DNA of 64,000 bases from Alphaproteobacteria bacterium (GTDB lineage: Bacteria; Pseudomonadota; Alphaproteobacteria; UBA7887), in the NCBI GenBank assembly GCA_030739735.1, contig JASLYQ010000003.1, forward strand, positions 62,001 through 126,000, read 5' to 3'. Both the position numbers and the translations under genes were made by a program. The notes beneath the pieces were generated by a model that saw only the letters and a program-made list of their open reading frames with translations, was not told the DNA's origin and did not search any database. This document shows positions 5,419 to 24,509 of this stretch, piece by piece. The stretch's first letter is position 1, and the number at the start of each line of letters is the position of its first letter.

Positions 5419-6306
5419 ATGCGCGACCTGCCCCGACTTAAGCCCAAACCGATTCCTGTCATCCATCCGGTTCCGGAATATCTCGCCGAAGGCGAGCTGC
5501 GCGAGATTTATGCCGATACCAAGACCGTGCTGCAAGTTCCTTGGATGGGGGTGATAGCTATGGCCTTCGCCCATTATCCGACCTTCTACGGCCGCCTTTG
5601 GCGGGGTTTGCGCGAGAGCTTCGCCAGCACTGCTTTGGTCGATACCTGCGCGGCGTTGCGCTGCGATGTTGAGAACCGCGTCGCTACACTAGAGCCGCCA
5701 CCGATCCGCGGAAGGCTTGAATCACTCGGCTATGCGGCGCGCGAGATCGCGGCCATCGATGATGTAATCGAGGTCTTCTCGCACGGTAACTTCCCCTACT
5801 GCCTGATGGCCACCATCGGGCGGTTGGCGATGGACGGCGAGGAGATTTGCCAGGGCGGTGCGGCAGTGCCCTTTGCTGGTCGCCACGCCCCAGATGTCGA
5901 CGTACCCTTTCTGCTCATGGAGGAGCATCACGCGGACGAGCCTATACGCACGGTCTATGATGACGTGAAGGTGAAACTCGGCCTGCCTTTCGTCAACACC
6001 GACTATCGCGCGTTGGCCCGCTGGCCGAGCTATTTTGCGCTGGCCTGGGACGATTTGGCGGCCGTGGTGTCGACAGCTTACTATGAGCGCCTGGTCGCGG
6101 AGACCCATGCGCAGGTCGTTGCAGCGGCCCGCGCGCTACCCAATCCGCAAGGTCTGAGTGGCGCGGATCTGCGCGAGGCTGCGGTGGCCGATGCTCCGGC
6201 GACAGAGGTTCTGGCCGTGACACGTCTGTTCCAATGGCTGTTGCCGGGATTGTTGATGAACGTGGCCTATTTGCGCCATCAACTGGGGCAGGGAGGAAGC
6301 CGATGA
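5419..6306 (+). CDS. DehI-family (group I) 2-haloacid dehalogenase-like protein
   Basis: About 295 residues from the ATG at 5419; a GTG 51 bases upstream abuts the ogt stop. It resembles the group I haloacid dehalogenases (DehI/D-DEX type), helical proteins built from two pseudo-repeats that hydrolyse D- or D,L-2-haloacids with inversion. Relevant segments are PVPEYLAEGELREIYADTK at the N-terminus, VPWMGVIAMAFAHYPTFY, and in the second half VYDDVKVKLGLPFVNTDYRAL, which carries the region of the proposed catalytic Asp. The stop overlaps the next gene's ATG as ATGA, which strongly suggests translational coupling. The substrate is not proven; family homologs also include proteins of unknown activity. 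Confidence 0.78.
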   Translation: MRDLPRLKPKPIPVIHPVPEYLAEGELREIYADTKTVLQVPWMGVIAMAFAHYPTFYGRLWRGLRESFASTALVDTCAALRCDVENRVATLEPPPIRGRLESLGYAAREIAAIDDVIEVFSHGNFPYCLMATIGRLAMDGEEICQGGAAVPFAGRHAPDVDVPFLLMEEHHADEPIRTVYDDVKVKLGLPFVNTDYRALARWPSYFALAWDDLAAVVSTAYYERLVAETHAQVVAAARALPNPQGLSGADLREAAVADAPATEVLAVTRLFQWLLPGLLMNVAYLRHQLGQGGSR

Positions 6307-6986
6307 GTGACAGCGGGATTCGTGGCGCTACGGCCTGCGTCTTCGATGCCTACGGCACGTTATTCGACGTGCACAGCGCGGTCGGTCGTCATCGGGACAC
6401 CCTAGGCGAGGCGGCTGATGCGGTGTCGGTGACTTGGCGTGACAAGCAACTGCAATATTCTTGGCTGCGCAGCCTTATGGGCGCCTATGTGCCATTTTGG
6501 CAGGTGACGCGCGAGGCCCTCGACTATGCCTTCGCCGTGCAAGGGGTAGAGGATGATGCGTTGGCCGAGGCGCTGATGGGCGCCTATCTCGAGCTCGATG
6601 CCTATCCGGAGGTCAAAAGCACCCTGGAGACCCTGCGTGGACAGGGCATGAGCCTCGCCATCCTGTCAAACGGAAACCGCGAGATGCTCGATGCCGCGGT
6701 CGGCAATGCCGGGCTGAAGCCGTTGTTCGATGCCGTGCTCAGCGTTGAGGCCGTGGGCACCTTCAAACCCCATATCAGCGCTTATCAGCTCGGCTGCGAT
6801 AGCTTCGGTGTGACGGCTGACGAGATATGTTTTTTGTCGTCGAACGCCTGGGATGTCTGCGGTGCAGCGCATTTTGGTTTCCAAGTTGCCTGGATCAACC
6901 GCTTCTCTCAGCCAGTCGAGCGGCTGCCAGGAGAGTGCAAGGCTGTGATCAAGACCCTTGACGAATTGCCGCCACTTATTTTCTAA
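6303..6986 (+). CDS. Haloacid dehalogenase, type II (L-2-haloacid dehalogenase, HAD superfamily)
   Basis: 227 residues, starting at the ATG that overlaps the preceding stop. The HAD motifs are complete: nucleophile Asp15 in VFDAYGTLFD, motif II LSNGN (Ser122), Lys155 in TFKPH, and the diagnostic SSNAWDVCGA (179-188) of L-2-haloacid dehalogenases in place of a phosphatase motif. Arg31 follows the nucleophile region. The cytosolic reaction is hydrolysis of L-2-haloalkanoates to D-2-hydroxyacids by an Asp-ester intermediate. Pairing with a DehI-type gene would let the cell treat both enantiomers. Confidence 0.9.
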   Translation: MSDSGIRGATACVFDAYGTLFDVHSAVGRHRDTLGEAADAVSVTWRDKQLQYSWLRSLMGAYVPFWQVTREALDYAFAVQGVEDDALAEALMGAYLELDAYPEVKSTLETLRGQGMSLAILSNGNREMLDAAVGNAGLKPLFDAVLSVEAVGTFKPHISAYQLGCDSFGVTADEICFLSSNAWDVCGAAHFGFQVAWINRFSQPVERLPGECKAVIKTLDELPPLIF

Positions 6987-22740: not shown

Positions 22741-23160
22741 ATGTTGCACACCAAGTTCCGACTCGACCTGAAGAAAAAGTTGCGCGCGTTCAAGTTGAAG
22801 GACAGCTACCTGAAGCGGGAGGTCAAGCTGTAGATCGCGCTGCTACGCGTGCAGCAGGCCTATGTCCGTCAGGGTCGGCCGGCGCGCCACAATCGTCTAA
22901 GGAGCCCGGGACGCTGCCGGCAAGGGCCGCAGCATTCGCAGACTGACCGCCAAGTTTGGTTCCCGCGCTTTCAAGGCCTTGCCGCTTCGAGGAGCGTCCA
23001 CGCAACTGGGCCCGCTAGAGGACTGTGAAGAGGCTTAGCAGATCATGCCAACACCACCTCGACCAAGGATGTGTCGTGGATGGTGGTTTCGGCCAATCAC
23101 AAATGGACGGTGCGTATCACGTCGTTGAATAGCTTATTGACCGGCTGTCACGTGCTGTTT
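22741..23160 (+). pseudogene. Decayed polyphosphate kinase 2 (PPK2) family gene
   Basis: Several PPK2 blocks are readable in order but in different frames. The N-terminal LKKKLRAFKLKDSYLKREVK runs in frame from 22741 to a TAG at 22831-22833, then ALLRVQQAYVRQGR. The Walker A block DAAGKG with SIRRLTAKFGSRAFKALP is shifted by one base from 22910. C-terminal TSTKDVSWMVVSANHKWTVRI lies near 23062-23124. A TAA lies just before the Walker A block, and a large middle portion (lid and Walker B) is missing. An intact PPK2 uses polyphosphate to phosphorylate nucleotides; this one cannot function. Confidence 0.85.
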
Positions 23161-23232
23161 ATATCGAGCCGCCCGAAGTCAACTATGAGATGGTGCCGAC
23201 GCCGAGTGCGAGCTGGGAATCAGTTCGAAAAT

Positions 23233-24000
23233 TTAGGGCTTGAGCCGGCTGATCTGGTGGGGATCGCAGCCCGCTTCGATAGCTAAGCCGTCAGGATCTA
23301 GGACTTGCAAAGTGCGTTTGGAGACGACCAGCAGGTGGGCCTCACGCAGCTCGCGCAGGGTGCGGTTCACGTGCACTGAGGTCAGGCCCAGGGCGTCGCC
23401 GATATGCTCCTGGGTGAGCGGTAGTGGAATCTTAGAGCCGAGCGGTTCGGAGTGGCGTAGGCGCACTCGGTAATAGAGCTCAAGTAGGAATAATGCCACG
23501 CGCTCCCGCGCCGAGCGCCGGCCGATACTGGTCAACAGTTCCTCCACCCGCGCCTCGTCGCGGGCGATGGTCCAGAGCAGACGGCTGGCGAGATCCGGCT
23601 GCTCGCGGATCATGATTTTAACTTTTTCATACGGGAAAACGCAGAAACTGCAACCGGTCAGCGCCTGGGCCGCATTCTCGGCCGGCGCTGGTAAATCGGC
23701 CTGGAAGCCGATGAAGTCACCCGGCAGTAGCACCCGCGTGATCTGCCGCCGCCCGTCTTCCAGCAGGCGGTAATGGAACGCCCAGCCTTCCAGCAGGGTA
23801 AACAGCTCGACAACCGGTTCGCCCTGGCGGATGAAGTCGGTGCCGGCCGGGATTGTGCGGTGTCCCGTCTTGTAGCGTTCCATGATCGACAAGTCGGCAT
23901 CGTCGAGCGGCTCGCAGATAGCTACCTCCCGCACCGGGCAGGCGGCGCAGGGACTGCCAGCCGGCAGCTCGCTAGTCGAGGCCGTCAGCTTGACGGTCAA
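23233..24000 (-). CDS. Crp/Fnr family transcriptional regulator with FNR-type cysteines
   Basis: 255 residues from a TTG. The N-terminal Cys18-x2-Cys21-x7-Cys29 plus a central cysteine in TGCSFCVF gives the four-Cys pattern expected of an oxygen-sensing [4Fe-4S] FNR-like protein. A cyclic-nucleotide-binding fold (about 40-150) and a C-terminal winged helix (LTQEHIGDALGLTSVHVNRTLRELRE) follow. The recognition helix reads SVHVNRTLREL, not the classical E-SR of FNR, so the operator may differ. It is divergent from a NifX-like gene; a weak FNR-like site lies between. Confidence 0.88.
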   Translation of the reverse strand: MTVKLTASTSELPAGSPCAACPVREVAICEPLDDADLSIMERYKTGHRTIPAGTDFIRQGEPVVELFTLLEGWAFHYRLLEDGRRQITRVLLPGDFIGFQADLPAPAENAAQALTGCSFCVFPYEKVKIMIREQPDLASRLLWTIARDEARVEELLTSIGRRSARERVALFLLELYYRVRLRHSEPLGSKIPLPLTQEHIGDALGLTSVHVNRTLRELREAHLLVVSKRTLQVLDPDGLAIEAGCDPHQISRLKP

Positions 24001-24063
24001 GATTCTGGTGTTTCCAACTCCATGGCGCTGCGGCGCCTCCCCTTCGCCCTCTCGATCGCGTGG

Positions 24064-24077
24064 CTAATCTAGATCAA
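24064..24077. promoter_or_regulatory. Candidate FNR-like operator between the Crp/Fnr gene and the NifX-like gene
   Basis: On the minus strand TTGAT-CTAG-ATTAG matches 8 of 10 bases of the FNR consensus TTGAT-N4-ATCAA. It lies about 64 bases upstream of the regulator start and about 90 bases upstream of the NifX-like start, suitable for control of either gene. The match is imperfect and was found by eye. Confidence 0.35.
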
Positions 24078-24167
24078 GGAAGCGCAATAGGCCAGCCGTC
24101 AATATGCTTGGAGTGTGGGGTCTTTTTTTGATCGTCTATAGCGTCGCTTTGGTGGCGGAGAGGCTCC

Positions 24168-24509
24168 ATGTCCCATAAGGTTGCATTGCTCGTATCCGAC
24201 GAGGCCGATAACGCGGCCCTGTCGCCGTTCTTCAGCTTGGCGCCTTGGCTGATGCTGGTGCGAAGCCACGGTGAGCGACCGGTCATCCAGCGCATCGACG
24301 ACCATGACTCCGAGGGCTTGATTTCCTTTATCGCCGGCCTGGCACCGGCACTCATGATATGTGGGCATATCCCGAGTGATGCCGCAAAACGGTTCACCGA
24401 TGCCGGGATTGACGTCCGCGTCGGCCCGTGCTCCGTACCTGCGATCAGCCTCGTGACACGCGCCCACGTGCTGCCGCACCCCAGAGCGACCACGACACCG
24501 AGCGACTGA
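24168..24509 (+). CDS. NifX/NifB-C-terminal-like (dinitrogenase iron-molybdenum cofactor family) protein
   Basis: 113 residues. The pattern KVALLVSDEADNAALSPFFSLAPWLMLV, DSEGLISFIAGLAPALMICGHIPSDAAKRFTDAGIDVRVGP resembles the small single-domain proteins related to NifX, NafY and the NifB C-terminus. They bind Fe-S or FeMo-cofactor precursors, or act in other metal-cluster handling. No nif genes are in the window, so nitrogen fixation should not be inferred. The 3' end converges on the aldolase gene with a 10-base gap. Confidence 0.6.
   Translation: MSHKVALLVSDEADNAALSPFFSLAPWLMLVRSHGERPVIQRIDDHDSEGLISFIAGLAPALMICGHIPSDAAKRFTDAGIDVRVGPCSVPAISLVTRAHVLPHPRATTTPSD

Follow-up and report, generated by a model that had tools for sequence, protein, structure and literature searches.

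The window, by which we mean the whole 64,000-nucleotide stretch of DNA that was analysed, encodes a Crp/Fnr-family regulator and, divergent from it, a small protein that is most likely a member of the regulon kept beside its own regulator and no part of a nitrogenase. The mechanism that we favour, with confidence that stands about level, is that an FNR-type regulator acting at low oxygen activates the divergent gene for a protein that handles metal or iron-sulfur clusters. A NifX-fold protein would thus gain a place outside nitrogen fixation, as the conserved and apparently FNR-activated partner of a low-oxygen regulator, and such partner pairs are found on both chromosomes and conjugative plasmids. 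The genome holding the window comprises 2.64 Mb in 69 contigs. The features of the locus, in which the two genes face away from each other start to start with 167 bp between them, are as follows:

22901 to 23230, plus strand: remains of a degenerate polyphosphate kinase 2 gene (ppk2) adjoining the regulator, given for context and outside the module
23233 to 24000, minus strand: Crp/Fnr-family regulator of 255 amino acids with a TTG start, open reading frame confirmed
24064 to 24079, plus strand: FnrN/FixK-type site CTAATCTAGATCAAGG, matching TTGANCNNGATCAANG at 10 of 12 positions and oriented toward the small gene
24100 to 24105, plus strand: -10-like hexamer CAATAT at class II spacing, 36 bases on from the first base of the site, matching TATAAT at three of six positions
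24157 to 24163, before the small gene: ribosome-binding-like sequence GGAGAGG, recognised by eye
24168 to 24509, plus strand: small protein of 113 amino acids with a predicted NifX/NifB-C/orange-protein fold, open reading frame confirmed

The regulator scores well above the Pfam cut-offs for PF00027 (51.5 bits, cut-off 27.5) and for PF13545, HTH_Crp_2 (59.8 bits, cut-off 27). Both cysteine elements described in the first-pass annotation are present: the N-terminal sequence C-A-A-C-P-V-R-E-V-A-I-C is a C-x2-C-x7-C motif of the FnrN type, a subgroup in which the third Cys is displaced by two residues (PMC7713065), and the central Cys lies within F-C-V-F-P and corresponds in alignment to the central Cys of FNR from A. 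fischeri. From this motif, the regulator probably holds a [4Fe-4S] cluster on four cysteines. The recognition helix is TSVHVNRTLRELR, and here too the earlier description of a non-FNR helix agrees with what was found, as T-S-V-H-V-N-R replaces the E-x-x-S-R of FNR and the final Arg alone is retained. The Glu, Ser and Arg residues of the second helix are important for recognition of the FNR box (PMC7713065). Binding of this regulator to an FNR box is therefore not assured, since the Glu and Ser used by FNR proteins are absent from its helix. The text available from PMC12531629 holds nothing on an HVNR-type helix. Comparison with curated models gave FnrL, Fnr and FixK as the best matches, all far below their cut-offs (114.4 bits against 300 for the FnrL equivalog).

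The ppk2 remnant next to the regulator consists of two fragments, one similar to the N-terminal part of PF03976 (E 0.0043) and the other to its C-terminal part (E 0.0053), and is interrupted by stops and frame changes. An intact ppk2 gene adjoins the paired regulator on an Ancylobacter plasmid (L009).

The small protein on its own matches PF02579 (Nitro_FeMo-Co) with only 15.3 bits (E 0.026), below the cut-off of 26.3, and seven of nine members of its family match the same model at E<=1, the best at 5.3e-4. A profile built from the nine members matches orange protein 2wfb (E 4e-5) and also 1rdu (E 0.0036). The membership in the NifX/NifB-C group proposed from the sequence was thus borne out by profile search, and the predicted fold agrees with it. 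The AlphaFold model, built from seven sequences, has a mean pLDDT of 78.3 and a pTM of 0.73 (pLDDT 45-59 for the other four of the five models). All of the first 12 rows returned by Foldseek for this model belong to the NifX/NifB-C superfamily. VIA-align placed orange protein first (Z 13.9, rmsd 2.2, 107 residues aligned), with NafY at 10.6 and NifX at 9.7; its first 11 rows all fall in the one NifX/NifB-C/orange-protein superfamily (Z 9.7-13.9), and the next, unrelated row scores 6.3. Model and profile together assign to the small protein the predicted ribonuclease-H-like fold of NifX, NafY, the NifB C-terminal domain and orange protein. All 12 homologues retain Cys88, and all but that of G002 retain Cys65 (11 of 12). 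In the model these residues follow strands 82-85 and 62-65, respectively, which would be neighbours as in a ribonuclease-H-like sheet.

The statement that no nif genes lie nearby holds well beyond the neighbourhood of the pair, as no match to PF02579 at E<=0.001 was found anywhere in the genome holding the window and nifH (E<=1e-10) is absent from all six paired genomes, four of which are incomplete or slightly contaminated. The suggestion that the module is independent of nitrogen fixation fits this lack of nifH.

The small gene was found in 16 records, comprising seven chromosomal contigs and nine plasmids. Searches recovered it from five of 96 relatives and from five of 385 genomes drawn from the class, among which G105 was new; L025 is one further genome contig, and nine of 72,556 plasmid records carry the gene. 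In 14 of the 16 records the regulator gene lies next to the small gene in divergent orientation (judged by coordinates in two of the plasmids), and the co-occurrence that the first-pass annotation had proposed as a check is thus conserved. The plasmid pairs have roughly 0.8 to 1 kb from one start to the other, and some of them enclose a hypothetical gene in this interval. The exceptions are Xanthobacter plasmid pXAUT01 (L058) and L025, in neither of which was a remnant of the regulator seen. The pairing also holds when approached from the regulator. The five of the 96 relatives that encode a homologue of at least 54% identity are exactly those with the small gene, and the next-best relative regulator (G086; 162 bits, 43% identity) is unpaired. 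Among 53 plasmid records, eight have the plasmid-type regulator at 63% identity or above, and these are precisely the ones with the small gene; the regulators of the other 45 records are below 60% identity, and at most 38.9% among the matches listed. The plasmid regulators are 40-46% identical to that of the window, carry the HVNR helix and fall within its group in a tree of 30 regulators. In this tree the paired regulators group together with G086, a long branch inside the group (support 82/75), and separate from both the group into which the 11 unpaired proteins having the Cys motif fall (100/100) and a group without the motif (100/99).

Several records were set aside or are of separate note. 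G065 was not counted as a member on account of four stops in frame, nor were G684 and G667, weak matches with E about 7e-4 from a draw of 398 genomes across the phylum. The small genes of L007-L010, on Rhizobiaceae and Ancylobacter plasmids for which the gene table is incomplete, have no annotated feature beneath them, though conserved. On pXAUT01 of Xanthobacter autotrophicus Py2 (around 12000 of L058), an annotated hypothetical gene on the opposite strand overlaps the small gene, and an FNR-type site is present. The small gene of L025 (about 5990-6336) sits between an anthranilate synthase-like gene, which it follows directly, and a gene for a CBS-domain protein (both named by eye). At L131:1003-1815, G105 encodes another regulator that combines the Cys motif with an HVNR-type helix but has no NifX-like neighbour. 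A search of viral contigs for relatives returned none, and no title or abstract in the literature searched describes the pair.

The surroundings of the pair bear on whether the two genes are merely carried together, as low-oxygen genes with a common control region that move as a unit and do not depend on each other functionally. The plasmid copies lie in mobile islands of low-oxygen and copper type, with copper, cytochrome, arginine-deiminase or DUF2933 genes as neighbours, and five of the nine plasmid records are near-identical, all of which is compatible with such passive linkage. However, the chromosomal pairs occur in three families with one arrangement and differing surroundings: the end of a cytochrome oxidase subunit I gene in G006, a multicopper oxidase and cytochromes c in G002 (by eye), and hemN with a methane/phenol/alkene hydroxylase-type gene in G105. 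We consider passive linkage very unlikely.

The site between the two genes matches the alphaproteobacterial FnrN/FixK consensus, which is TTGANCNNGATCAANG (PMC4999443). It was initially described as a weak FNR site; its presence at 24064 is confirmed, but the term weak under-called it, given ten of 12 FnrN/FixK positions and a class II location. The idea that the site is strong by itself was rejected, because sites of its quality number eight across the window against 4.55 expected, which is chance level, and the case rests on position and recurrence. The best site within 250 bp before the small gene is significant in the window (p = 0.013), in G003 (0.027) and in G033 (0.002), as well as in four plasmids (0.005, 0.003, 0.003 and 0.001) and in pXAUT01 (0.021). 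No significant site was found in the same interval in G006 (0.21), G002 (0.67), G105 (0.15) or L025 (0.49), so that eight of 12 homologues have a site at p<0.05.

In E. coli, the site lies at about -41.5 in 19 of the 23 directly FNR-activated promoters whose starts are known (PMC3688515), from which a -10 hexamer is expected 36 bases on from the first base of the 14-base site. This offset was tested in the ten of 12 homologues with a site of at least 8/10 in the region -150 to -85; G002 and L025, which have none, were dropped. At offset 36 the TATAAT scores add up to 36/60, more than at any other offset from 20 to 69 (mean 14.2 elsewhere), a sum reached in none of 200,000 random-offset draws, and individual relatives match TATAAT at up to five of six positions. 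The hexamer had been seen by eye beforehand in the window, G003 and G033; the seven homologues unseen beforehand sum to 24/42 at offset 36 (1/200,000 draws). The five chromosomal rows alone give 1/100,000, the plasmid rows being related and not independent. On the regulator side the -10 scores at the same offset are 1, 3 and 1 in the three cases tested. The site therefore serves the small gene, although the regulator gene may also be affected. By its sequence, the layout corresponds to a class II FNR promoter directed at the small gene, with a predicted start at about 24112.

Which protein reads the site was approached through the other Crp/Fnr proteins of the paired genomes. The genome holding the window encodes two proteins above the HTH_Crp_2 cut-off, and the paired regulator is the likely activator because the other is CRP-like, with R-E-T-V-A-R in its helix and no Cys motif. 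In G033 the paired regulator is the only Crp/Fnr protein found. Among the proteins examined in G002, G003 and G006 there is no other with the Cys motif (a short G006 match, L137, gave no row), and G002 encodes one unpaired Cys-free regulator with E-x-x-S-R. That last protein, the second HVNR-type regulator with cysteines in G105 and the altered helix of the paired regulator itself would all suit a different reading, in which the site belongs to another FNR/FixK protein and the HVNR-type regulator reads some other sequence as a mere neighbour; plasmid hosts may likewise have a FixK or FnrN of their own. Yet the window and G033 have good sites in genomes where no other FNR-type protein was found, and we judge this reading quite unlikely.

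Further sites in the genome holding the window suggest, though they do not prove, that the paired regulator acts as the cell's FNR in spite of the altered helix. A site-type pattern with up to one mismatch has nine matches against none for the reversed control; a single palindrome, read on both strands, accounts for two of these matches, and at least two fall within coding genes. The intergenic sites precede hemA, a second hemerythrin gene, a 2-oxoacid:ferredoxin oxidoreductase-type operon, and a PAS/BTAD regulator gene with a cytochrome c and a molybdopterin (NarG-like) enzyme, from which a hemerythrin gene diverges. Both hemA and hemN are known FnrN targets (PMC4999443). These other sites have a poorer -10 match at the class II offset (scores 3, 0, 2 and 3). 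The two hemerythrin genes (L085 and L090) are each near an FNR-type site. A conserved hemA site as a general feature was rejected: it is clear in the genome holding the window only, weak in G002 (7/10) and absent in G105, the region being cut by a contig end in G003 and limited to 208 bp in G033, and G006 having no hemA match at the cut-off. Genome-wide counts of exact TTGATN4ATCAA boxes do not separate genomes with the regulator from those lacking it and were rejected as evidence. The gene neighbours of exact boxes in G003, G033 and G105 are mixed, with many boxes inside coding frames; by eye, plausible ones are a universal stress protein (G033) and a small secreted C-x2-C-H protein (G105). 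For the evolution of FNR, it appears that FnrN cysteines combined with a different DNA-reading helix can serve an ordinary FNR box as the sole FNR of a genome.

Under the favoured reading, the regulator would sense oxygen as an FNR-type protein through its [4Fe-4S] cluster and, at low oxygen, would bind 24064-24079. Once bound, it would activate the small gene from the class II promoter. The small protein would in turn bind a metal or an iron-sulfur cluster close to Cys65 and Cys88, where the neighbouring strands end, and may buffer the cluster or hand it to proteins needed under low oxygen.

The distribution of cysteines among the regulators limits what else the small protein could do. All four cluster cysteines, three N-terminal and one central, are present in the regulators of the window, G002, G003 and G006, and the N-terminal motif is present in G105; one is missing in G033 and the plasmid regulators have none of the four. 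Cluster delivery to the regulator is unlikely to be the general role of the small protein, since plasmid regulators devoid of cluster cysteines keep the partner. It would then chiefly be either an output protein for low-oxygen conditions or a partner that passes information to the regulator. As such a feedback partner or co-sensor, the NifX-fold protein would bind the regulator or take or give a cluster and so tune its activity, and the Cys-free plasmid regulator could rely on it for sensing. The near-strict pairing is tighter than expected for an ordinary regulon member, and the partner retains Cys88 throughout and Cys65 in all homologues but one, with all four cysteines of the plasmid regulators lost together. 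Against this, two small genes, those of pXAUT01 and L025, have no adjacent regulator, and the co-sensor role seems to us possible but doubtful. A split sensor, in which the cluster-binding partner sets the activity of the regulator and oxygen or metal sensing in the plasmid lineages has passed from a FixK-like regulator to the partner, is in our estimation unlikely. With the Cys-free plasmid regulators, it can be tested directly whether sensing resides in the partner.

Among known systems, the window regulator resembles the FnrN/FnrL-type regulators of Alphaproteobacteria in domain layout, in the C-x2-C-x7-C motif with a central Cys and in the box TTGANCNNGATCAANG, but differs from them in a helix with neither Glu nor Ser, in its separate branch of the tree and in falling under the FnrL cut-off. 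The plasmid members resemble FixK-type (Cys-free) regulators in having no cluster cysteines and in being neighbours of FixK2-dependent gene types: in B. diazoefficiens, DUF2933 and isoprenylcysteine methyltransferase genes are of the FixK2-dependent kinds, and bll7993, which adjoins a DUF2933 gene, is itself FixK2-dependent (PMC9104804). Unlike FixK-type proteins, however, they carry the HVNR helix and group with the window regulator in the tree.

The small protein shares its fold with NifX, NafY and the NifB C-terminal domain, but its setting differs in that nifH is lacking from the six paired genomes and its PF02579 score is below the cut-off. Orange protein (ORP) is its best match by both structure and profile, and MrpORP binds a [3Fe-4S] cluster through its NifX-fold domain (PMC6345978). 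In contrast to ORP, the small protein has an invariant Cys88, a near-invariant Cys65 and an FNR-type regulator next door. The iron-sulfur storage protein IssA belongs to the same domain family as NifB and NifX (PMC5524996); it has a C-terminal tail with a single Cys and forms large particles, whereas the small protein is without such a tail.
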